A stretch of 64,000 nucleotides of DNA from assembly GCA_002894685.1 (NCBI GenBank), contig NCRC01000001.1, positions 62,001 through 126,000 on the forward strand. The letters are read 5' to 3'. How positions within the stretch are numbered: the stretch's first letter is position 1; each line of letters opens with the position of its first letter. Source of the stretch: Salinivenus lutea. Lineage in GTDB: Bacteria; Bacteroidota; Rhodothermia; Rhodothermales; Salinibacteraceae. Both the position numbers and the translations under genes were made by a program. Shown one piece after another: positions 45,746 to 58,462 of this stretch. Below the pieces are notes generated by a model. That model did not search any database. It saw nothing but the letters and a program-made list of their open reading frames with translations, and was not told the origin of the DNA.

Positions 45746-46879
45746 GTGCCCCCTCCCGCCGCCCCCAGCCTCTACGTCCACGTTCCGTTTCGGCGCGTCC
45801 CGCGCCCCTACGACGACGCGGCGTACACGTACGGGTCGCCGGAGGCGTACCGACAGTACCTCTCGGCGCTACGACGTGAGATCGACGAGCACGCGGCTCC
45901 CCGCCTCGCCGCCCCCGACATCGTCTCGGTTCACATCGGGGGCGGCCGCCCGTCGCTCTTGCCTCTCGATCTTGTACGGCAGCTTGTCGGCGCACTGCCC
46001 CTCCCGGCAACCGCTCCCAGCCGGGAGGTCACGATGGAGGTCGCCCCCGCCGATGCGACGCCCGACTACCTGAACGGCCTGGCCGAGCTGGGGGTGACGC
46101 GCCTGAGTCTGGCGGGGCGTTCGTTCTCGCCCCCGGTGCTCCGGGCCCTCGACGCGCCCCATTCCGCCGAGGCCGTGGCTCGATCGATCGACGCCGCCCG
46201 CGCAGCCGGGATCGACACGGTGGCCCTCGACCTTGTGTTCGGGCTGGACGGGCTTTCCCTCGGCACGTGGGACGCTACGCTCCGTCGCGCCCTCGCGCTC
46301 GACATTCCGCACGTGTCGATTGTCGAGGTCCCTTCTGCCGCCCCCGAGGACACGGTCGCCGACCACATGGAGCACGCCCTCTCCGTCCTGGGCGCGGCCG
46401 GGTACGACCACTACAGCCTCACCCACTTCGCGCAGCCGGGTCGGCGCTCCGCCCATCAGGAGCACTACGACCGGCACGGCGCGTTCCTGGGCCTGGGCCC
46501 CGGGGCGGCGAGCTTTCGGTGGGATGACGGCCCCGACGCCTCCTCCCTTCGCGCCCGGCGCTGGACGAACGCAGGGGCGCTGGACGCGTACGTCGAGCGG
46601 ATTCAGGGTGGGGAGTCACCGGCCGCTTCCTGCGACGCTCTCGGCGCCCCGGACCTGGCCCGCGAGTACGTCTTGATTCGCCTCCAAACCCTCGAGGGCC
46701 TGTCCCTGCGAATTCTGCGGGACCGGTACGACCTCGACCTCCGCACCGCCGCGGGGGCCCTCCTCGATCAACTTCGTGACGCCAACCTCATCCACGAGGA
46801 CCCCGATCTCGTGCGGCTCACCCCGCGCGGCCGGCTGCTCACCGATGCCCTTACTCGTCGCCTTCTCTCGTCGCTGTAA
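45746..46879 (+). CDS. HemW/HemN-like protein lacking the radical-SAM cysteines
   Basis: 377 residues along the length of HemW, the radical-SAM haem chaperone once annotated as coproporphyrinogen oxidase. The family start SLYVHVPF is present, but the CxxxCxxC that binds the 4Fe-4S cluster reads R16-R17-V18-P19-R20-P21-Y22-D23: all three cysteines are replaced. Other landmarks survive in altered form: HIGGGRPSLL for GGGTPS, TRLSLAGRSF for the usual LSxGxQSF, DLVFGLDGLSLGTW, LGLGPGAASF, and a C-terminal HemN-type winged helix (LEGLSLRILRDRY). Radical chemistry is therefore unlikely; haem binding or a scaffold role is possible. It starts at GTG 45746, coupled to the upstream gene. Confidence 0.82.
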   Translation: MPPPAAPSLYVHVPFRRVPRPYDDAAYTYGSPEAYRQYLSALRREIDEHAAPRLAAPDIVSVHIGGGRPSLLPLDLVRQLVGALPLPATAPSREVTMEVAPADATPDYLNGLAELGVTRLSLAGRSFSPPVLRALDAPHSAEAVARSIDAARAAGIDTVALDLVFGLDGLSLGTWDATLRRALALDIPHVSIVEVPSAAPEDTVADHMEHALSVLGAAGYDHYSLTHFAQPGRRSAHQEHYDRHGAFLGLGPGAASFRWDDGPDASSLRARRWTNAGALDAYVERIQGGESPAASCDALGAPDLAREYVLIRLQTLEGLSLRILRDRYDLDLRTAAGALLDQLRDANLIHEDPDLVRLTPRGRLLTDALTRRLLSSL

Positions 46880-47388: not shown

Positions 47389-47880
47389 ATGTCTCTCCCC
47401 CGCCTTCTTTTCGTTGCCGCCCTTCTCCTGGCGATCGCCACCGGGTGCGGCCCCGACACCGAGTCTGCAAAGGACACCGGCGACTCGTCCTTCGAACAAG
47501 AAGGCACGCTTGCCTTCTACCACCCGAACGGCGACACCCTGGCCACCATCGCCATCGAGATTGCCGACACCGACGCCGAGCGGCGGCGGGGCCTCATGCA
47601 GCGCCGCTCCCTCGGCTACGATCGGGGCATGCTCTTCCTCTTCGAGGAGACGAGTACCGACGGCATGTGGATGAAGAACACGCCCCTGCCCCTCGACATC
47701 GTCTTCGTGTCGCCGGACTCACAGGTCATCAATATCGCCCGCCGCACCACCCCCTTCTCCGAAGACACCATCGAGCCCGCCGCCCCGCGCCGGTTCGTCG
47801 TGGAGGTGCGTGCCGGCTTTGCCAATGAGTTTGGCCTCACCGACAGCACTCGCGTCCGATGGGTGCGCACCGACAACTAA
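47389..47880 (+). CDS. DUF192 lipoprotein, first copy
   Basis: 163 residues. The signal peptide has the lipobox AIATGC (Cys near residue 20). The DUF192 domain follows: TDAERRRGLMQRRSL, GMLFLFEETSTDGMWMKNTP, PLDIVFVSPDSQVI, VVEVRAGFANEFG. DUF192 is a small beta-rich domain of unknown function, often exported. It lies 18 bases after the acetyltransferase gene and 8 bases before a paralogue. Confidence 0.85.
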   Translation: MSLPRLLFVAALLLAIATGCGPDTESAKDTGDSSFEQEGTLAFYHPNGDTLATIAIEIADTDAERRRGLMQRRSLGYDRGMLFLFEETSTDGMWMKNTPLPLDIVFVSPDSQVINIARRTTPFSEDTIEPAAPRRFVVEVRAGFANEFGLTDSTRVRWVRTDN

Positions 47881-47888
47881 CCGAATCG

Positions 47889-48419
47889 ATGTTCGCTGCT
47901 CCCCGGCTTATGCGCCTTCTCGTCTTCCCCCTGCTCGCCGCCGCCCTGTTGGTCGCCCCCCTGGGCTGCCAGACGGACGACTCCACCTCCTCCCCAGCGT
48001 CCGACACGGACGCCGGCCCCACCATTCCGTTCGACAACGAGGGACAATTCGTCTTCATTCAGGACGGCGACTCCCTCGTCACCCTCGACCTGGAAATTGC
48101 CGAGACCGACTCGGCCCGCGAGCGCGGCATGATGCAACGGGAGGGGTTCCCCAACGAGACGAGCGGCATGCTCTTCCCGTTCGACGCGGAAGAAGAGCGC
48201 AGCTTTTGGATGGCGAACACCCCCGTGGCGCTCGACCTTTTCTTTCTCGACGCGGACTCGCAGATCGTACACATCGCCCGGTACGCCCGCCCCAACTCGC
48301 CCGACCCCATTCCCTCGCAGGAACCGGCCCAGTACGTGCTCGAGACGCCCGCCGGGTTTGCGGACCGCTACGGCGTGCTGGAAGGCGATCGTGCCCGCTG
48401 GAGACGCACCGACTCGTAG
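47889..48419 (+). CDS. DUF192 lipoprotein, second copy
   Basis: About 176 residues. The signal peptide and lipobox (LLVAPLGC) are followed by a Ser/Asp-rich linker and a DUF192 domain collinear with the first copy: TDSARERGMMQREGF, SGMLFPFDAEEERSFWMANTP, ALDLFFLDADSQIVHIAR, VLETPAGFADRYG. The two copies differ at many positions, so the duplication is old. ATG 47889 or ATG 47910 may start it. The gene ends directly before the palindrome at 48421. Confidence 0.83.
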   Translation: MFAAPRLMRLLVFPLLAAALLVAPLGCQTDDSTSSPASDTDAGPTIPFDNEGQFVFIQDGDSLVTLDLEIAETDSARERGMMQREGFPNETSGMLFPFDAEEERSFWMANTPVALDLFFLDADSQIVHIARYARPNSPDPIPSQEPAQYVLETPAGFADRYGVLEGDRARWRRTDS

Positions 48420-48420
48420 C

Positions 48421-48436
48421 GTAAACGATCGTTTAC
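48421..48436. promoter_or_regulatory. Palindrome GTAAAC-GATC-GTTTAC, candidate operator copy 1
   Basis: A perfect 16-base palindrome in the short convergent gap between the second DUF192 gene and the A-type carrier gene. A second copy with the same half-sites and spacing lies at 48972-48987. It lacks the GC-rich stem and T-run of a terminator. Confidence 0.5.
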
Positions 48437-48445
48437 ACCAGGAGA

Positions 48446-48778
48446 CTATACCCCAAACGACTCGCCGCACGCACACTCTCGGGAGGCCTGCGGGTTGGAG
48501 AAGTGAAAGCCCTCCCCGTCGAGCCCGTCCGTGAAGTCGAGCTCCGAGCCGTCGAGGTACAACCGGCTCTTCTTGTCGAGCACGACAGTAACGCCGTTGT
48601 GGGTCTCCACCGTGTCCTCCTCCTGCACGGTCGTGTCCCACCCCAGGTCGTACGTCAGCCCCGAGCAGCCCCCCGGGACAACCGCCACTCGCAGCATTTT
48701 GTCCGTTAAATCGACGTGTTCTTCGGACGCCACCTCTTCAATCTGATTGATGGCACGGTCGGTGATCGTAATGGTCAT
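48446..48778 (-). CDS. A-type iron-sulfur carrier (SufA/ErpA-like)
   Basis: 110 residues of the HesB/IscA fold. Three cluster-binding cysteines are at VVPGGCSGLTY and at the C-terminal SRECACGESF, the CxnCxC pattern of A-type carriers. It receives clusters from SufBCD and hands them to apo-proteins. ATG 48778 (MTITITDRAINQ) is the family start. The gene is transcribed away from the sufB operon, with a 296-base shared upstream region that contains operator copy 2. Confidence 0.93.
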   Translation of the reverse strand: MTITITDRAINQIEEVASEEHVDLTDKMLRVAVVPGGCSGLTYDLGWDTTVQEEDTVETHNGVTVVLDKKSRLYLDGSELDFTDGLDGEGFHFSNPQASRECACGESFGV

Positions 48779-48971
48779 GGCCGTTGAACATGCATCCAGA
48801 GAGGGCGCGCAAGGGCCTGTACCTAGGGGCCAACGCAGAGGTTTCTCCGGGCCCCGATCGGCACGGACCGTCTTCTTCCCAAGTTGCAATGAAGACGTGA
48901 ACTCCCATTTTCAAGAAGGAACGATGATCCAGGGCCCTGGTTGTAACCGCACGTTGTCACGGAGTCAGCAC

Positions 48972-48987
48972 GTAAACACTCGTTTAC
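48972..48987. promoter_or_regulatory. Palindrome GTAAAC-ACTC-GTTTAC, candidate suf operator copy 2
   Basis: It has the same half-sites and spacing as 48421-48436, and the flanking bases agree too (C before, AC after). It lies in the divergent region between the A-type carrier and sufB, ten bases before TTGACA (48997-49002), a possible sufB -35 box. A matching -10 box is weak (TAACAC at 49018, spacing 15). On the minus strand a possible carrier promoter is TTGAAA (48914-48909). Confidence 0.55.
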
Positions 48988-49074
48988 ACGCTGGTGTTGA
49001 CAGGATTTCGCCGGGTCTAACACATCGCCACCTGCATCGGAGCACTCACGAGACCAAACGAGGGACCGTAACTT

Positions 49075-50535
49075 ATGAGCACATCCGAAACCGAGTATCT
49101 GAAAGGAAAGGCCAGTGAGGAGTACAAGCACGGCTGGTACACTGACATCGAATCGGAGAAGGCCCCTAGGGGGCTTAGCGAGGACATTGTCCGGTACATC
49201 TCGAAGCGCAAGGACGAACCGGAGTGGCTCACCGAATGGCGCCTGAAGGCCTACCGCTACTTCAAGCAGCTGATCGACAGTGGGCATTATCCGGACTGGG
49301 CCCACCTCGACTACGAGCGCCCCGACTTCGAAAACATGCGCTACTTTGCGGCGCCGAACGGGCAGGCTCAGTACGAGAGCCTCGACGACGTGCCGGATGA
49401 GATTTTGGAGACCTTTGAGCGCCTGGGCATTCCCCTGGAGGAGCAGAAGGCCCTGACCGGCGTCGCGGTCGACGCGGTCATGGATAGCGTCTCCGTCGCT
49501 ACCACCTTCAAGGAGAAGCTGAGAGAGAAGGGCGTTATCTTTAAATCCTTCGGAGAGGCGGCCAAGGACCACCCCGAGCTCGTCCGGCAACACCTCGGGT
49601 CCGTCGTCCCGTACACCGACAACCTGTACGCGGCGCTCAACTCGGCCGTCTTCAGCGACGGCTCCTTTGTGTACGTGCCGGAGGGCGTCACCTGCCCCAT
49701 GGAGCTGTCCACCTACTTCCGAATCAACGAAGCGGGCACCGGCCAGTTTGAGCGCACGCTCATCGTTGCCGAGCCGGGTGCCTACGTAAGCTACCTGGAG
49801 GGCTGCACGGCCCCGATGCGCAAGGAAAACCAGTTGCACGCGGCCGTCGTGGAGCTTATCGCCCACGAGGACTCCGAGATCAAGTACTCCACGATCCAGA
49901 ACTGGTATCCGGGCGACGAGGACGGCAACGGGGGCATCTACAACCTCGTCACGAAGCGCGGCATCTGCAAGGGCGACAACTCGAAGATTAGCTGGACGCA
50001 GCTGGAGACGGGGTCCGCCGTCACGCAGAAGTACCCGTCCGTCATTCTGGCCGGGGACAATTCAGTCGGTGAGTTTTACTCCGTGGCCTTCACGAAGGGC
50101 CACCAGCAGGCCGACACCGGCACGAAGATGCAGCACATCGGCAAGAACACGAAGAGCACCATCATCTCGAAGGGCATCTCGGCCGACGTGGCGGACAACA
50201 GCTACCGCGGCCTGGTGAAGGTGAGCGCCAACGCCGACGGCGCCCGCAACTTCTCGCAGTGCGATTCGATGCTGCTGGGACCGGACTGCGGCGCCCACAC
50301 CTACCCCTACATCGAGAGCAACAACCCAACCGCCCAGATCGAGCACGAGGCAACGACATCGAAGGTCGGGGACGACCAGATGTTCTACTGCCACCAGCGC
50401 GGGCTCGGCGAGGAGGAAGCTCTCAAGCTCATTGTGAATGGGTTCTGCCAGGAGGTACTGCAAGAGCTTCCGATGGAGTTTGCCGTGGAAGCGAAGGAGC
50501 TTCTCGACATTGAGCTGGAAGGCTCGGTGGGATAA
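49075..50535 (+). CDS. sufB: Fe-S cluster assembly scaffold protein SufB
   Basis: 486 residues, normal for SufB. The right-handed beta-helix core has [51 protein letters not shown] and [18 protein letters not shown], ending with [19 protein letters not shown]. SufB forms the SufBC2D scaffold on which clusters are built. ATG 49075 is the clear start. First gene of the suf operon; sufC follows after 126 bases that contain a hairpin. Confidence 0.97.
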
Positions 50536-50661: not shown

Positions 50662-51432
50662 ATGGCACTACTTGAAATTAAAAACCTGCACGTTGGCGTC
50701 GAAGACGAGGACATCAAGATCCTGAACGGGGTCGACCTCACGCTCGACACCGGCGACCTTCACGCAATCATGGGCCCGAACGGCTCCGGCAAAAGCACGC
50801 TGGCGGCCGTCCTGGCGGGCCGGGAGGAGTACGAGGTCCTCGACGGCGAAATCCTGTACGACGGCGAGGATCTGCTGGAGCTTGAGCCCGAGGAGCGCGC
50901 CGAAGCCGGGGTGTTTCTCGCCTTTCAGTACCCGGTCGAGCTGCCGGGCGTGAGCATGACGAACTTCCTGAAGGAGGCCGTCAACTCCGTCCGCGAGGCC
51001 CGTGGACAGGACGAGCTCGGCTCCGCCGACTTCCTGCAGTACATGCGCGAGCGGGCCGACATGATGGGCCTGAACGCCGACCTCACGAAGCGCTCGGTCA
51101 ACGAAGGCTTCTCCGGTGGCGAAAAGAAGCGAAACGAGATCTTCCAGCTCGCCATGCTGGAGCCGAAGCTTGCCATCCTGGACGAGACCGACTCCGGACT
51201 CGACATTGACGCCCTGAAAAACGTGGCGGACGGGGTCAACAAGCTACGGAGCGAGGATCGCGGCTTCCTCATCATCACCCACTACCAGCGCATCCTCGAC
51301 TACATCGTCCCCGACCACGTGCACGTGATGCTCGACGGCAAGATCGTGCGCACCGGCGACAAGGACCTCGCCCTGGAGCTTGAGGAGCACGGATACGACT
51401 GGGTCCGCGAGGAAGCGGCCGCAGCAGCGTAG
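50662..51432 (+). CDS. sufC: SUF system ATPase SufC
   Basis: 256 residues, ABC-type ATPase of the SufBC2D complex. Walker A is GPNGSGKSTLAA, the signature is GFSGGEKKRNE, and Walker B is KLAILDETDSGLDIDALKNV, the last being specific to SufC. It is soluble and drives conformational change in SufB-SufD. ATG 50662 is the family start (MALLEIKNLHV). sufD follows after 86 bases. Confidence 0.97.
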   Translation: MALLEIKNLHVGVEDEDIKILNGVDLTLDTGDLHAIMGPNGSGKSTLAAVLAGREEYEVLDGEILYDGEDLLELEPEERAEAGVFLAFQYPVELPGVSMTNFLKEAVNSVREARGQDELGSADFLQYMRERADMMGLNADLTKRSVNEGFSGGEKKRNEIFQLAMLEPKLAILDETDSGLDIDALKNVADGVNKLRSEDRGFLIITHYQRILDYIVPDHVHVMLDGKIVRTGDKDLALELEEHGYDWVREEAAAAA

Positions 51433-51518: not shown

Positions 51519-52862
51519 ATGTCTACTACTGCCCTTGATACCAGCGTGCGTCCCGAAGACCGATTCATCTCGGCCTTCGAGGTGAACCACGGGGAGGCCC
51601 TGAACGGCACAAACGCCTCCATCTCGAAGCAGCGCACGGATGCCATTGAGCGCTTCGCCGAGCTGGGCATCCCAACCAACAACCTAGAGGCCTGGAAGTA
51701 CACCGACATCAGTTCGGTAATCGACCGGCCCTACACGCTCCCCCTCGCCCCGGAGCGCCCCTCGCTCGACACGGACGACATCGCTCCGTTCCTGATTGAC
51801 GACCTGGACGCCCACCGCGTCGTGCTCATCAACGGCCGCGTCGACGAGGTGCTGTCCGACATCGGCGATCTGCCCGACGGGGTGGTCGTGAGCAGCCTCG
51901 CCCAGGCCGGCAGCACCCATCCCGACGTGGTGGAGGAGCACTACGGCAAGTATGCCGACTTTGAGGACGAGGCGCTCACCGCCCTCAACACGGCCTTCGT
52001 GCAGGACGGGGCGTTCGTCTACGTGCCCTCCGGCACCGTTGTGGAGAAGCCCATCTTCTTCCTCCACCTCACGGCCACGGAGCAGGACCTGCTCCTGCAG
52101 CCCCGCCATCTGTTCGTGGCGGAGGACGGCGCCATCGCCCGCATCGTGGAGGCCCAGCACTCGCTGAGCGACGCCCAGACGTTCACGAACACCGTGAGCG
52201 AGTCGTTTGTCGGCGAAAAGGCCAACCTGGAGCATTACCTGATCCAGGATCAGGGCCCCTCCGCCTCGCAGGTGCACACCCGCGCCGCACAACAGAAAGA
52301 CGACAGCGTCTACACCACGATCTCGGCCACCTTTACGGGAGAGGTCGTCCGCAACAACGTCACCATCGAGGCCGACGGCTCCTTCTGTGAGTCGAACTTC
52401 TACGGCCTTGTGGTCGGCAAGGACGACATGCACGTCGACAACCATACGTTCATGGGCCACGTGCAGCCCGACTGCTCGAGCAACGAGCTGTACAAGCACG
52501 TGCTCAACGACGAATCGACGGGGGTCTTCAACGGAAAGGTGTTCGTCTCGCGCGGCTCCCAGCGCATCGACGCCTACCAGCAGAACGATACGCTGGTCCT
52601 GACCAAGGACGCGGAGATTTACACGAAGCCGGAGCTCGAGATCTACGCCGACGACGTGGTGTGCAGCCACGGCGCGACGACCGGTCAGATCGACGAGGAG
52701 AGCCTCTTCTACCTCCGCTCCCGCGGCCTCAGCAAACGCCGGGCTCGCATCCTCATGCTGCAGGCCTTTGCACAGGAAGTGATCGACGAGATTCAGCTCG
52801 ATTCGCTTGAGGAGCACGTGGCCGAGCGCGTGCGCACCCGGTTCTCCAGCTACTTCGCATAA
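51519..52862 (+). CDS. sufD: Fe-S cluster assembly protein SufD
   Basis: 447 residues, partner of SufB in the SufBC2D scaffold and a likely iron-entry subunit. Landmarks are NNLEAWKYTDISS, FVQDGAFVYVPSGTVVEKP, FMGHVQPDCSSNELYKHVLN, QQNDTLVLTKDAEIYTKPEL, and HGATTGQIDEESLFYLRSRG with the conserved His. ATG 51519 matches the family; the preceding in-frame codons do not. Confidence 0.95.
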   Translation: MSTTALDTSVRPEDRFISAFEVNHGEALNGTNASISKQRTDAIERFAELGIPTNNLEAWKYTDISSVIDRPYTLPLAPERPSLDTDDIAPFLIDDLDAHRVVLINGRVDEVLSDIGDLPDGVVVSSLAQAGSTHPDVVEEHYGKYADFEDEALTALNTAFVQDGAFVYVPSGTVVEKPIFFLHLTATEQDLLLQPRHLFVAEDGAIARIVEAQHSLSDAQTFTNTVSESFVGEKANLEHYLIQDQGPSASQVHTRAAQQKDDSVYTTISATFTGEVVRNNVTIEADGSFCESNFYGLVVGKDDMHVDNHTFMGHVQPDCSSNELYKHVLNDESTGVFNGKVFVSRGSQRIDAYQQNDTLVLTKDAEIYTKPELEIYADDVVCSHGATTGQIDEESLFYLRSRGLSKRRARILMLQAFAQEVIDEIQLDSLEEHVAERVRTRFSSYFA

Positions 52863-52949: not shown

Positions 52950-54206
52950 ATGCCCGCGACGACCCAACCGACATCGGACACTACCTCGTTCGACGTAGAG
53001 GCCTTCCGTGCCCAGTTCCCGGCCCTCCAACAAGAGGTGTACGAGGACACCCCCCTCGTATACCTCGACAACGCCGCGACCTCCCAGAAGCCCGACGCCG
53101 TAATCGAGCGGGCGGAGCGGTACTACCGTCGCGAAAACAGCAATGTACACCGCGGCGTGCACCGACTGAGTCAGGATGCGACCGAGGCGTACGAGTCGGC
53201 CCGGAAGTCCGTTGCCCGCTTCATTAATGCCCCCGCCCCGGAGCAGGTGATTTACACAAAGGGGACGACCGAGGGGCTCAACCTCGTGGCGAACACTTTT
53301 GGTCAACAACGGGTGGGCGCGGGCGACGAAATTCTCCTGACGGAGATGGAGCACCACTCCAACATCGTCCCGTGGCAGATGCTGGCCGAGCAGGTGGGGG
53401 CGGAGATCCGCGTGCTTCCGGTCACGGACCGCGGCGTCCTGCAGATGGATCGGCTTGCGGAGTACCTTACCGAGGACACGGCCCTCGTCGCCGTCACGCA
53501 TGTGTCCAACACACTCGGGACAATCAACCCCGTGAAGGATCTCATCGACGCGGCGCACGCGGTGGACGTCCCGGTGGTGGTCGACGGCGCACAGTCGGCC
53601 CCTCACCTGCCCGTGGATGTACAGGCGCTCGACGCCGACTTCTTCGTGTTTTCCGGGCACAAGATGTTCGGGCCCACGGGCATCGGCATCCTCTACGGCA
53701 AGCGGGAGCACCTTGAGGCCATGCCTCCCTATCAGGGCGGGGGCGACATGATCGACCGGGTCTCGTTCGACGAGACGACCTACGACGCCCCCCCGCACAA
53801 GTTTGAGGCCGGCACGCCCCATATCGAGGGCGCGATCGGGCTCGGCGCCGCCGCCGAGTTCATCATGGATCTGGACTGGTCGGCCGTCCAGGCCCACGAG
53901 GACGACGTGCTGGCGTACGCCACCGAGCAGGTCCGTGCCATTGACGGGATTCGCCTGATCGGCACGGCCCCGGAAAAGACGAGTGTGCTTTCGTTCGTCT
54001 TTGAGGACATTCACCCCTACGACGCGGGCACCTTCCTCGACCGCCTCGGCATCGCGGTGCGCACGGGCCATCACTGTACCCAGCCGCTCCTGAAACGGTA
54101 CGGGCTGCCCGGCACCATCCGGGCCTCCTTTGCCGCGTACAACACCCGGGCGGACGCCAACCGACTGGCCGAGGGCCTGCACCGCACCCGCGAGATGCTG
54201 GGGTGA
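52950..54206 (+). CDS. sufS: Cysteine desulfurase SufS
   Basis: PLP enzyme that takes sulfur from cysteine as a persulfide. 418 residues, group II desulfurase. It has YLDNAATSQKP, TEGLNLVANTF, EMEHHSNIVPWQ, the PLP Lys in FVFSGHKMFGPTGIG, and the persulfide Cys in RTGHHCTQPLL. ATG 52950 (MPATTQPTSD) is preferred. It is partnered with SufE, encoded 82 bases downstream. Confidence 0.96.
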   Translation: MPATTQPTSDTTSFDVEAFRAQFPALQQEVYEDTPLVYLDNAATSQKPDAVIERAERYYRRENSNVHRGVHRLSQDATEAYESARKSVARFINAPAPEQVIYTKGTTEGLNLVANTFGQQRVGAGDEILLTEMEHHSNIVPWQMLAEQVGAEIRVLPVTDRGVLQMDRLAEYLTEDTALVAVTHVSNTLGTINPVKDLIDAAHAVDVPVVVDGAQSAPHLPVDVQALDADFFVFSGHKMFGPTGIGILYGKREHLEAMPPYQGGGDMIDRVSFDETTYDAPPHKFEAGTPHIEGAIGLGAAAEFIMDLDWSAVQAHEDDVLAYATEQVRAIDGIRLIGTAPEKTSVLSFVFEDIHPYDAGTFLDRLGIAVRTGHHCTQPLLKRYGLPGTIRASFAAYNTRADANRLAEGLHRTREMLG

Positions 54207-54288: not shown

Positions 54289-54720
54289 ATGTCCACCTCG
54301 AACACGGTGTCGGATCGGGCCCAGGAAATCGTCGATGAGTTTTCACTGTTCAGCGACTGGATGAACCGGTACCAGTACCTCATCGAGATGGGAGACGACA
54401 TTCCCCTCCTTCCGGAAGACATGAAGTCGGAGGAGTATTACGTCCACGGCTGCCAGTCGGACGTTTGGATTCGGGTCGAGTACGACGAAGACGAACAGGT
54501 CCTGCACTTTCAGGGCGACAGCAACGCGAAAATCACGAAAGGCCTCGCCGCCCTCATCATCCGGGTGGTTGATGAGCAGCCGCCCGAGGCGGTCGCCGAA
54601 GCCAGCTTCGACTTTCTCGACGACATCGGCCTCCACGAACACCTGAGTTCGCAGCGCAACAACGGCCTGGAGGCCATGATCGACCAGATGAAGAAGCGGG
54701 CGCAGGCCTTCCGCAACTAA
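54289..54720 (+). CDS. sufE: Sulfur acceptor protein SufE
   Basis: 143 residues. Accepts persulfide from SufS and passes it to SufB. The conserved Cys is in YYVHGCQSDVWI; other signatures are FSDWMNRYQYLIEMG and GLAALIIRVVDEQPP. No iron or zinc ligand set of SufU is present, so this is the SufE type. ATG 54289 fits; the longer frame back to 54130 overlaps sufS. Confidence 0.95.
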   Translation: MSTSNTVSDRAQEIVDEFSLFSDWMNRYQYLIEMGDDIPLLPEDMKSEEYYVHGCQSDVWIRVEYDEDEQVLHFQGDSNAKITKGLAALIIRVVDEQPPEAVAEASFDFLDDIGLHEHLSSQRNNGLEAMIDQMKKRAQAFRN

Positions 54721-54747: not shown

Positions 54748-55188
54748 ATGAATCCTGCAGGTGCAATGCCGGGCATGCCGGGAGGCGGAGGAGGCGGCGG
54801 CGCGGCCGATATTCCCGACGACAAGAAGAACACCGACATCGAACGCCCGGAAACCATTCCGGACCATGTCCAGGACACCCCGGACGACGACCTCTACCAA
54901 CGGATCGTGGACTCGATTCGGGAGGTCTACGACCCGGAGATTCCGGTGAACGTCTACGACCTGGGCCTCATCTACCACATGGAGGTCCACGACGACCACA
55001 GCGTGGACGTGCTGATGACCCTGACGGCCCCGAACTGCCCGGCCGCCGGCGTCTTGCCGGGGCAGGTCGAGGACGCCGTGAAGGAGACCGAGGGCGTGGA
55101 GAGCGTCAACCTTGAGATGACGTTCGAGCCGCCGTTTTCGCCCCAGATGATGTCCGAGGAGGCCCGCCTGGAGCTGGGCTTTATGTAG
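54748..55188 (+). CDS. sufT: SufT/MIP18-family (DUF59) Fe-S maturation protein
   Basis: 146 residues. A Gly/Met/Pro-rich and then acidic N-terminal region (1-50) precedes a DUF59 domain: VYDPEIPVNVYDLGLIY, VLMTLTAPNCPAAGVLP with the conserved Cys, and MTFEPPFSPQMMSEEAR. SufT helps mature or deliver clusters to target proteins. It is 27 bases after sufE and the last clear suf gene of the operon. Confidence 0.9.
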   Translation: MNPAGAMPGMPGGGGGGGAADIPDDKKNTDIERPETIPDHVQDTPDDDLYQRIVDSIREVYDPEIPVNVYDLGLIYHMEVHDDHSVDVLMTLTAPNCPAAGVLPGQVEDAVKETEGVESVNLEMTFEPPFSPQMMSEEARLELGFM

Positions 55189-55264
55189 CCCCGGGTCCCC
55201 TGCGAATGGTCGAGGCTTGGCCCCTCTCGCCCCCGATGGATCTTCCGCACTCAACACAGTACCC

Positions 55265-58012
55265 ATGGACCACGCGAAGAGCTTAGCGCTGGCGAAGGAC
55301 CTGCTCGCCGATGGGCGGGGGGACGACGTGGTGCGGATGATCGATCCGCTTCTCGAACCGGTCGACGCCCCCGCCGCGGACACCGGGCAGTTGCTCCTCC
55401 GGGCCCTCCGCGCCCAGGTGGCCATCGTGGATCACGAGGCGCCGGACGAGGCCCTCAACCACCTTCCCTCGCGTGCGGAAATCGAAGAACTCTGTACATG
55501 CGTCCGGGCCGAGGTGTCCCTTTGGCGAGGCTGGGCACACGCCCTCCGCAATCAGGAGGTCGGCGAGGTCTCCCAGGCACTTCGTCTTCTCTCGACGGCC
55601 CACGACCTCCACGACTCAATTCACGATCCAAGTGGGCGCTGCTGGGCCCTTCTCGGAACGGCCTTTGCCCACCTGTCGCTTGGCGAATACGCCCTTGCGC
55701 ACCGGACGCTCGATGACGCCTCGTCCCTGGTTGCGGCCCTCGAGGACGCCCTGGTCCATCAATGGTGGCATCGACTCTGGCTTCCGGTCCGGCGGGCCGC
55801 GGGGCAGTACGAAAAAGCACAGGAACACGTCGACGCCCTTCGATCCCTGGCCTCGGACGCCGACCGTTCGTCGCTGCACGCGATCGCATCGGCACACGCG
55901 GCGTCCCTCCACGCCGCGGTTGGCCGTCCCCCCTCCACAATCCTCGAGGCGGCCGAGCACGCCGAGACGGTTCTCTCCCGTACCGACCTACATGCCGCCC
56001 CCCTCCTGCTCACCTATCGGGCCCAGATCGAAGCGCACCTCCGCCGCGGCGACGGCCCGGCCGCCCGCGGGGCACTGACCCGCGCCGAGCACGCCCTGCC
56101 CGACCGGTTCGCCGCCCCGTGCCAGGTCCTTCGCACAGAAATCGCGCTCCGCGTCGGCGAAACGCCCTCCACCGACCTGACGTCAATTTTTGAACGCCCG
56201 ACGCCTCTGCCGCGCGGGGTGTCACACGCCGAGGTCCTGCACCTGCACGGACGCCTCCTCGCCCAACGAGACCACCCCGAAGAGGCTCGCACCTGGCTCC
56301 GGCGCGCCGAGCGGGCCGCGGAGGAAACCGGAGACCGCGAACTGCACCTGCGCACCCGCCTGTCCCGCGTGGAGTTTGAGCACGCGCACGGCGAATCGGA
56401 GACGGCCCGCGCTCTGCTTCCGCCTCCCCGTGCCCTTCCGCAGGAGGCCCTGCCCCTCATCACCCACTGGTTCGTCCTCCGCGGCGAACTGAAGCCCGCG
56501 AACGGCGGAGCGCGGACCGCCCGTCGGCTGGCCCTCGTCGGTGCGTCCCTCATGGAGGACCGCCCCCAGATGGATCGCCTCCGCTCCGAGCACGACCTGG
56601 AGTCAACCGACGAGGCCGGGTGGGCGCCCCTCCTTGGCGAGGCCCACGCGTCCGTCCGCCTGGTGGCGGCACTGTCCTTTCGTCTTATCGAGTCGAAAGG
56701 CGCCCCGACATGGAGCGGGCTTGCTCGGATCAACGGCGACACCGCCTCCCTCCTGTACGAGCGAGGGCCCCGGCCCGAGGGCGTTCCGGCCTCCGATTCC
56801 CTACGGGTCGATCACGCCCCGAACCATCGCCTGCGGTGGATTCCGCTTCCGCCGTCCGACTCGAACGTCGCCCTGGGCATCGACACCGCCGCCCTCTCGG
56901 AGGAGAGCCTCGACTCGATCGCCGACTGCGCGCCCCTCATCGGCAGTGCCGTGGCGCGGGCGCAGGATCACACCGCCTCTCCCCGCCCGTTCCTCTCCTC
57001 TCCCACCGACGCGGACGCGGTCGTGGCCGAAAGCGACGCCATGCGCACCGTGCTGGCCGACCTCTCCCGCGCCGCAACCAGCCGACGCCCGGTCCTTCTG
57101 TCCGGGGAACGGGGCACGGGAAAGGCCCGGCTCGCCCGCTCCCTGCACCGCAAAAGCCCCCGCGCCGACGGCCCGTTCGAGCGGGTGCAACTGGCCGACC
57201 TCCAACACAGCCCCACGGCGGAGCGACTGTTTGGCAGCGTCAGCGCCTCAGGGTTCACCCCGGGCGCCCTTCATCATGCAGACGGCGGCACGCTCCTGCT
57301 CGACGACCTGGACGCCCTTTCCCTCTCCGCGCAGGCCTCAGTGCTCAAAGCGCTCGACACCGGAACCGTCGTCCCCCAGGGCGGCACGGAGGCCCACTCC
57401 ATCGACGTCCGCATCGTGGCCACCACAACGACGCCCCTCGAGGAGCAGGTGCGCGAGGGAGCCGTTCGCCCCGACCTCCGGGACCGCCTCGGCGCCCTCT
57501 CCCTCTCCGTGCCGGCCCTGCGCGAGCGCCGCGCCGACATTCCCCTCCTCGTCCGGCAATTCCTGAAGACCCTGCGCCCCGACGGCGCCCCGATGGCGTC
57601 CATCACGGAGCCGGCGATGGAGGCCCTTCTCCGGTACGACTGGCCCGGAAACGTACGGCAATTGCGCAATGAAATCGAGCGCGTGCTCGTCCACGTAAGC
57701 AGTGAGCCGACGCCCACCGTCGCTGTCGACGACCTGCTCGATACGATCGTGGAGGCGGCCCGGGACCGCGCGCCAACGGCCTCCACTGAGGCCCCAGAAG
57801 CCGTGCTCCACCCCGAGCAGACGCTGACCGACGTGCTGTCCCAAACCGAAACCGCCGTCATTGAGCGCGTCCTCGAGTCCTGTGACGGACAAGTCACCGC
57901 CTCCGCCGAGGTCCTGGGCCTGACCCGACAGGGCCTCTACAAGAAGATGAAGCGGCTCGGCATCGAAGCCGCGGAGTTCCAACCGACGCCCGAACCCGCC
58001 TCTACCTCTTAA
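55265..58012 (+). CDS. Enhancer-binding-protein-like regulator: helical repeats, GAF-like, AAA+, Fis HTH
   Basis: 915 residues. Residues ~1-460 are helical repeats like TPRs (HAEVLHLHGRLLAQRDHPEE). Residues ~480-590 may be a GAF-like sensor. An AAA+ domain of the sigma54-activator type follows: Walker A SGERGTGKARL (Lys620), ADGGTLLLDDLDAL as Walker B with DD in place of DE, an arginine-finger region PDLRDRLG, and ALRERRADIPLL. The GAFTGA loop that contacts sigma54 reads GFTPGA, and the stretch to DGGTL is about five residues short. The C-terminal Fis-type HTH is GQVTASAEVLGLTRQGLYKK. It starts 76 bases after sufT and may be cotranscribed; the target genes are unknown. Confidence 0.85.
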   Translation: MDHAKSLALAKDLLADGRGDDVVRMIDPLLEPVDAPAADTGQLLLRALRAQVAIVDHEAPDEALNHLPSRAEIEELCTCVRAEVSLWRGWAHALRNQEVGEVSQALRLLSTAHDLHDSIHDPSGRCWALLGTAFAHLSLGEYALAHRTLDDASSLVAALEDALVHQWWHRLWLPVRRAAGQYEKAQEHVDALRSLASDADRSSLHAIASAHAASLHAAVGRPPSTILEAAEHAETVLSRTDLHAAPLLLTYRAQIEAHLRRGDGPAARGALTRAEHALPDRFAAPCQVLRTEIALRVGETPSTDLTSIFERPTPLPRGVSHAEVLHLHGRLLAQRDHPEEARTWLRRAERAAEETGDRELHLRTRLSRVEFEHAHGESETARALLPPPRALPQEALPLITHWFVLRGELKPANGGARTARRLALVGASLMEDRPQMDRLRSEHDLESTDEAGWAPLLGEAHASVRLVAALSFRLIESKGAPTWSGLARINGDTASLLYERGPRPEGVPASDSLRVDHAPNHRLRWIPLPPSDSNVALGIDTAALSEESLDSIADCAPLIGSAVARAQDHTASPRPFLSSPTDADAVVAESDAMRTVLADLSRAATSRRPVLLSGERGTGKARLARSLHRKSPRADGPFERVQLADLQHSPTAERLFGSVSASGFTPGALHHADGGTLLLDDLDALSLSAQASVLKALDTGTVVPQGGTEAHSIDVRIVATTTTPLEEQVREGAVRPDLRDRLGALSLSVPALRERRADIPLLVRQFLKTLRPDGAPMASITEPAMEALLRYDWPGNVRQLRNEIERVLVHVSSEPTPTVAVDDLLDTIVEAARDRAPTASTEAPEAVLHPEQTLTDVLSQTETAVIERVLESCDGQVTASAEVLGLTRQGLYKKMKRLGIEAAEFQPTPEPASTS

Positions 58013-58042: not shown

Positions 58043-58462
58043 ATGCCTTCCTCCTCCCCGTCTACAGACCATGACTCCTCAGGGCCGAGCCCGTCGGTCC
58101 AGTTGGATCATGCGTCCGTCATGACGACTGACCTGGAGGAGGCAACCTCGTTTTACGTGGATGTGCTGGGCCTCACGTTGTACTCCGTAGAAGACGACCC
58201 GGTGCGGGAGGACCGCCAGCGCGCCATGCTGGGCGACGGCTCCGGCCACGCGGTGATTGAGCTCATCGAAATGCCCGAGATGGCCCATCCGTCGGTGCCG
58301 GGCCGCGGCGCCATCCACCACATCGGGTTCTCCCTCTCGTCCCGCGACTGGCACGCGCTGCGCTCTCGCCTGGACGCCACCGAATACTCGTATCAGGAGG
58401 TGAAGGGGCGCCTCTTTATCCGCGACACGGACGGCCTCGTGCTGGAAATCGAGAAGGAATAG
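58043..58462 (+). CDS. VOC-superfamily (glyoxalase/epimerase-like) protein
   Basis: 139 residues, two beta-alpha-beta-beta-beta modules. Likely metal ligands are His in QLDHASVMT, Glu in AVIELIEMPE, His in GAIHHIGFSL and Glu in GLVLEIEKE, the set seen in glyoxalase I and methylmalonyl-CoA epimerase. The substrate cannot be told apart. A 15-residue Ser/Pro-rich leader precedes the domain. It lies 30 bases after the regulator gene and may share its transcript. Confidence 0.82.
   Translation: MPSSSPSTDHDSSGPSPSVQLDHASVMTTDLEEATSFYVDVLGLTLYSVEDDPVREDRQRAMLGDGSGHAVIELIEMPEMAHPSVPGRGAIHHIGFSLSSRDWHALRSRLDATEYSYQEVKGRLFIRDTDGLVLEIEKE

Follow-up and report, generated by a model that had tools for sequence, protein, structure and literature searches.

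Conserved palindromic boxes at the suf locus of Salinivenus lutea and a putative regulator related to sigma-54 activators

The known dedicated regulators of suf genes are Rrf2 proteins or SufR. SufR is reportedly also active at a divergent suf promoter (Shen 2007). A different type of control is represented by TyrR, which in Escherichia coli is an NtrC-class protein without the GAFTGA motif, while Azospirillum TyrR keeps the motif (PMC6375630). TyrR, DhaR, HupR, and VpsR are enhancer-binding protein (EBP) paralogs that have been decoupled from sigma-54 (PMC3162934). The TyrR box has the consensus TGTAAA-N6-TTTACA with G-N14-C, and strong and weak boxes occur together at the divergent akr-ipdC promoter (PMC4374768). 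Here, we describe TyrR-like boxes at the suf locus of Salinivenus lutea (window of 64,000 nucleotides; GCA_002894685.1, contig NCRC01000001.1, positions 62,001 to 126,000) and the gene that accompanies them. No published account of a suf regulator of this kind was found in the literature searched.

Boxes at the suf locus

The locus is divided by a 296-bp divergent region, with a sufA-like A-type carrier gene on the minus strand (48446 to 48778; PF01521, TIGR00049) and, on the plus strand, sufB (49075 to 50535; NF008773, 851 bits), sufC (50662 to 51432), sufD (51519 to 52862), sufS (52950 to 54206), sufE (54289 to 54720), and a sufT-like gene (54748 to 55188; TIGR02945). The divergent region holds a strong box, O1 (GTAAACACTCGTTTAC; 48972 to 48987), and a second strong box, O3 (GTAAACGATCGTTTAC; 48421 to 48436), lies in the gap where a DUF192 gene and sufA converge; no strand is assigned to any box. 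O1 and O3 are 551 bp apart, both inside a 32-nt direct match of 75% identity. A preliminary description of the window had listed O3 and O1 as two copies of one palindrome, and their exact positions were confirmed. It had overlooked a third, weaker box, O2 (GTAACCGCACGTTGTC, in relatives GTAAYCGNNCGTTGAC; 48943 to 48958), which most box-bearing genomes carry 26 to 32 bp upstream of O1. The suf boxes match the TyrR-box consensus, G-N14-C included.

Allowing at most one mismatch to GTAAAC-N4-GTTTAC, O1 and O3 were the sole matches in the genome (3.55 Mb, 76 contigs), and 2 of 100 window shuffles equaled the observed count at up to two mismatches (mean, 0.27). The preliminary description had judged two such sites improbable by chance and had proposed a genome-wide search for matches clustering at Fe-S genes; the search was positive, with every match at suf, and the judgment held, given this uniqueness and the conservation at suf across families.

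Conservation was assessed by exact motif searches of 41 relatives, with tblastn on the loci, and nearly all matches were at sufB. Among 114 genomes of the order, strict GTAAACN4GTTTAC sites occurred at suf at least 38 times (a lower bound, because a few matches were unlisted), and only two of those listed lay away from suf (G030 and G099). The exact non-suf match in G030 was considered as the promoter of the regulator itself and rejected; we take it as a chance match because it lies between genes for a short-chain dehydrogenase and a phosphodiesterase-like protein. A leave-one-out weight-matrix scan of approximately 68 suf loci gave bimodal scores, the best box reaching ≥11.4 in box-bearing loci and ≤−1.4 in the rest. 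Box-bearing genomes belong to families f1 (that of the window), f3, f6, f7, f8, f9, and f12, with one genome of f2 (G039). Across these families O1 is kept as GTAAACN4GTTTAC upstream of sufB, usually 80 to 240 bp ahead of the ATG. About 15 genomes of f1, f7, f9, and f12 carry O3, which either coincides with the sufA stop codon or lies immediately beyond it. O3 is missing from f3, f6, f8, G035, G039, and some members of the window's genus (more than 12 box-bearing genomes overall). The sites, their conservation, and their restriction to suf are shown directly, and the palindromes are very likely real, conserved control sites of the suf genes, for which there are no binding or expression data. 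DNA looping between O1 and O3, raised as a possibility in the preliminary description, remains possible and unproven; relatives place them about 500 to 925 bp apart, and O3 is often absent.

A TTGACA (48997 to 49002, plus strand) follows O1 after 9 bases, and not 10 as initially counted. The emphasis first placed on this element lacks support: it is lineage specific, and it was rejected as a conserved −35 because, after O1, it is common only to the window genome (G000) and a near-identical sister (G012). A search of the sufA/sufB region for a sigma-70-type promoter pair found none.

A candidate regulator encoded after sufT

The next gene after sufT encodes a protein of 915 amino acids (55265 to 58012, plus strand; alternative TTG start at 55217). 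Its domain make-up is shown by Pfam matches to Sigma54_activat (117.8 bits), the AAA lid (71.3 bits), and HTH_8 (40.9 bits), as in sigma-54 EBPs of the NtrC, NorR, and DhaR class; the N terminus is TPR-like, with only a sub-threshold TPR_12 match. The AAA+ domain, of the sigma-54 activator type, is degenerate in the window protein, with a decayed L1 loop (57227 to 57286, plus strand; LFGSVSASGFTPGALHHADG replacing LFGHEKGAFTGA...) that reads ASGFTPGA at the GAFTGA position. No part of the protein is better conserved than the Fis-type HTH (LGLTRQGLYKKMKRLGI; 57836 to 57958, plus strand; PF02954). Mean pairwise identity among orthologs is 68% in the HTH versus 42% in the AAA+ domain, and thus selection has kept DNA binding. 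As the ortholog alignment contained no invariant cysteine, the protein is unlikely to sense through an Fe-S cluster in the manner of IscR, a judgment drawn from sequence alone; the TPR-like N terminus could point to sensing via a protein partner, the signal itself being inferred. Shortened forms of the protein, lacking most of the central region (about 490 to 725 amino acids versus about 915 to 1,000), were seen in several lineages (L029, L104, L041, L045, and L276), which comprise some members of the window's genus, f9, and G039.

The gene and the boxes occur together. The gene follows suf in 35/35 resolvable box-bearing genomes and was found beside suf in 0/26 box-less loci, counting only loci with at least 8 kb of downstream sequence. 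Three box-bearing genomes (G013, G032, and G046) were unresolved, as their suf contigs stop before the expected place of the gene, and the protein was not found. A profile of the N-terminal region detected the regulator in 36 of the 114 genomes of the order, all of them box-bearing except G024, whose assembly lacks sufB. The same profile gave no match outside this order in 345 sampled genomes of the phylum, and a profile search of genome contigs with the regulator alignment returned nothing but generic NtrC proteins from other phyla. The co-occurrence prediction was met in G039, the sole box-bearing f2 genome sampled, whose suf contig ended early: the N-terminal profile recovered a degraded, short regulator directly after sufT with its HTH intact, which another profile (E ≤ 1e−60) had missed, and four box-less f2 genomes lacked the regulator. 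On the sufB tree, independent concordant pairs of box and regulator numbered two on supported branches and six on the unsupported best tree; because only two are supported, co-occurrence alone, although shown, is not decisive. The initial proposal that the palindromes are operators of a suf regulator other than IscR is supported, in that relatives preserve the sites, which are restricted to suf and co-occur with a gene after sufT that is not of the Rrf2 type.

Sigma-54 features and comparison with TyrR

GAFTGA with intact Walker motifs (Walker A and Walker B) is kept only in the orthologs of f3, f6, and f12, as in sigma-54 EBPs. GAFTGA is missing from the orthologs of f1, f7, f8, f9, and G039, and in genus g5 of f1 the Walker A lysine is lost too. 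The best −24/−12 elements at sufB were found in the same three families that keep GAFTGA (TGGCAT-N5-TTGCC in G029 and G065, CGGCAC-N5-TTGCA in G050, and CGGCAC-N5-TTGCT in G035). Their position is fixed within each family (f3 and f6, −57 to −65; f12, −93). A −24/−12 sigma-54 promoter was also sought at sufB in the window's lineage and was absent. The chance that the GAFTGA families would be the top three of 15 for −24/−12 is 1/455; the pattern had been spotted before scoring, and the scoring weights followed the general sigma-54 consensus. The pairing of GAFTGA with the −24/−12 promoter is shown: families without GAFTGA also lack the promoter, and their boxes and HTH remain. As rpoN was present in 27/27 genomes tested, the decoupling was not caused by loss of sigma-54. 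The best tree requires a minimum of three changes, a single clade was not rejected (p-AU, 0.16), and more than one independent decoupling from sigma-54 is possible.

The locus resembles the E. coli/Enterobacter TyrR system in its box consensus and in its combination of strong and weak boxes within a divergent promoter region, and the window protein, like E. coli TyrR, combines an NtrC-class AAA+ domain with a Fis HTH and lacks GAFTGA. Unlike TyrR, it is TPR-like at the N terminus, with no ACT or PAS ligand-binding region found by Pfam, and its inferred target is suf at one locus, not a regulon of aromatic amino acid genes. Against the NCBIfam TyrR family model (NF008085) it scored 138.7 bits, in the AAA+ part only, below the cut-off of 576. 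The regulator thus probably works like TyrR without being a TyrR family member, its binding and mode of action being inferred. Loss of GAFTGA is shared with the decoupled EBP paralogs TyrR, DhaR, HupR, and VpsR; in contrast to these, the suf-regulator orthologs include both states, with a matching promoter change and one conserved target. Dedicated suf control would be shared with IscR, RisR, other Rrf2 proteins, and cyanobacterial SufR, but these belong to unrelated protein families and use different operators.

Proposed mechanism and alternatives

In the explanation we favor as likely, the boxes are binding sites of a dedicated suf regulator encoded after sufT, which originated as a sigma-54 EBP and acts here in the style of TyrR; binding, cooperativity, repression, looping, and signal are all inferred. 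Dimers would occupy the strong O1 and, about 29 bp upstream, bind to the weaker O2 with the cooperativity known for TyrR, with O3 at the sufA end as a distant auxiliary site. In Rhodothermus-like relatives, the GAFTGA-bearing regulator would activate sufB from the −24/−12 sigma-54 promoter. Since the window's lineage has neither GAFTGA nor the sigma-54 promoter, the regulator there would have to work, like E. coli TyrR, at a sigma-70-type promoter. It would most likely repress the divergent units sufA and sufBCDSE-T-regulator, possibly via a loop enclosing sufA; the preference for repression in this lineage is moderate, and the sign is inferred. Because the regulator gene lies behind the suf genes in their orientation, repression of its own unit would give negative feedback.

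Four alternatives were weighed. The boxes may be owned by a regulator encoded elsewhere (Rrf2/IscR-, SufR-, TetR-, or LexA-like), with the EBP a mere operon passenger. Many of the genomes do carry Rrf2 proteins, and some carry SufR-like proteins (50 to 73 bits), including two in the window genome. However, IscR or SufR at cut-off was found in 0/14 box-bearing genomes, IscR had no match in G000, G020, and G029, box-bearing G000, G020, G029, and G032 had no Rrf2 or only fragments of one, no SufR-like match was found in box-bearing G014, G031, G035, G043, G044, and G053, and, in all cases that could be resolved, the box is accompanied by the gene after sufT. Rrf2/IscR and SufR, the families compared with box presence (TetR, LexA, and other families were outside the comparison), were rejected as the box regulator, as their presence does not follow the box, and this alternative is unlikely as a whole. 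That O3 is a transcription terminator or other RNA element is suggested by its position between convergent gene ends; yet O3 is identical to O1, outer bases too, has no T-run or terminator call, and overlaps the sufA stop codon in several genomes, making this reading very improbable. Chance palindromes, for which only the two shuffles reaching two matches at up to two mismatches can be cited, are refuted by conservation at suf across families, together with genome-wide uniqueness, and are all but excluded.

The closest competitor accepts that the regulator binds the boxes and holds that it is a sigma-70 activator in the window's lineage, as TyrR is at some promoters. In its favor, the ancestral sigma-54 protein presumably activated transcription, O1 and O2 lie upstream of sufB, and TyrR activates ipdC from the strong box (PMC4374768). 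Against it, O3, where present downstream of sufA at about 500 to 925 bp from O1, is hard to reconcile with activation; the search gave no sigma-70 pair, and start sites are unmapped. Equally, no direct sign favors repression over sigma-70 activation; we rate activation below repression. Separately from this comparison, the window genome was observed to contain only fragmentary Rrf2-domain matches (C3, C17, and C39), and many relatives have full ones.

Our preferred reading of a dedicated EBP-derived regulator, if true, would mean that Rhodothermus, Salinibacter, and their relatives control the assembly of Fe-S clusters through an EBP instead of an Rrf2 protein or SufR. The balance of evidence leans toward an undescribed class of suf regulator, a one-target EBP within the suf cluster whose orthologs were rewired naturally from sigma-54 to sigma-70. 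In such a rewiring, the contact loop, ATPase motifs, and −24/−12 promoter would decay together, and the boxes and HTH would stay. An apparent one-target regulator having orthologs with and without the sigma-54 machinery would provide a compact system for the evolution of a sigma-54 activator into a TyrR-like protein.

Other genes near suf were also noted. Two tandem DUF192 (COG1430) genes (47389 to 48419), with lipoprotein-like N termini and about 39% mutual identity, precede O3, and many members of the order have such a pair next to suf. A HemN/HemW-like radical SAM open reading frame (45746 to 46879) has apparently lost its cysteine motif (RRVPRPYDDAAY versus CTQRCVYCDFYF in L052), and a similar kind of loss was seen in the HemN/HemW-like open reading frame of the f1 relative L032. 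Directly after the regulator gene lies a glyoxalase-family gene (58043 to 58459), a position kept in G053 and G039.
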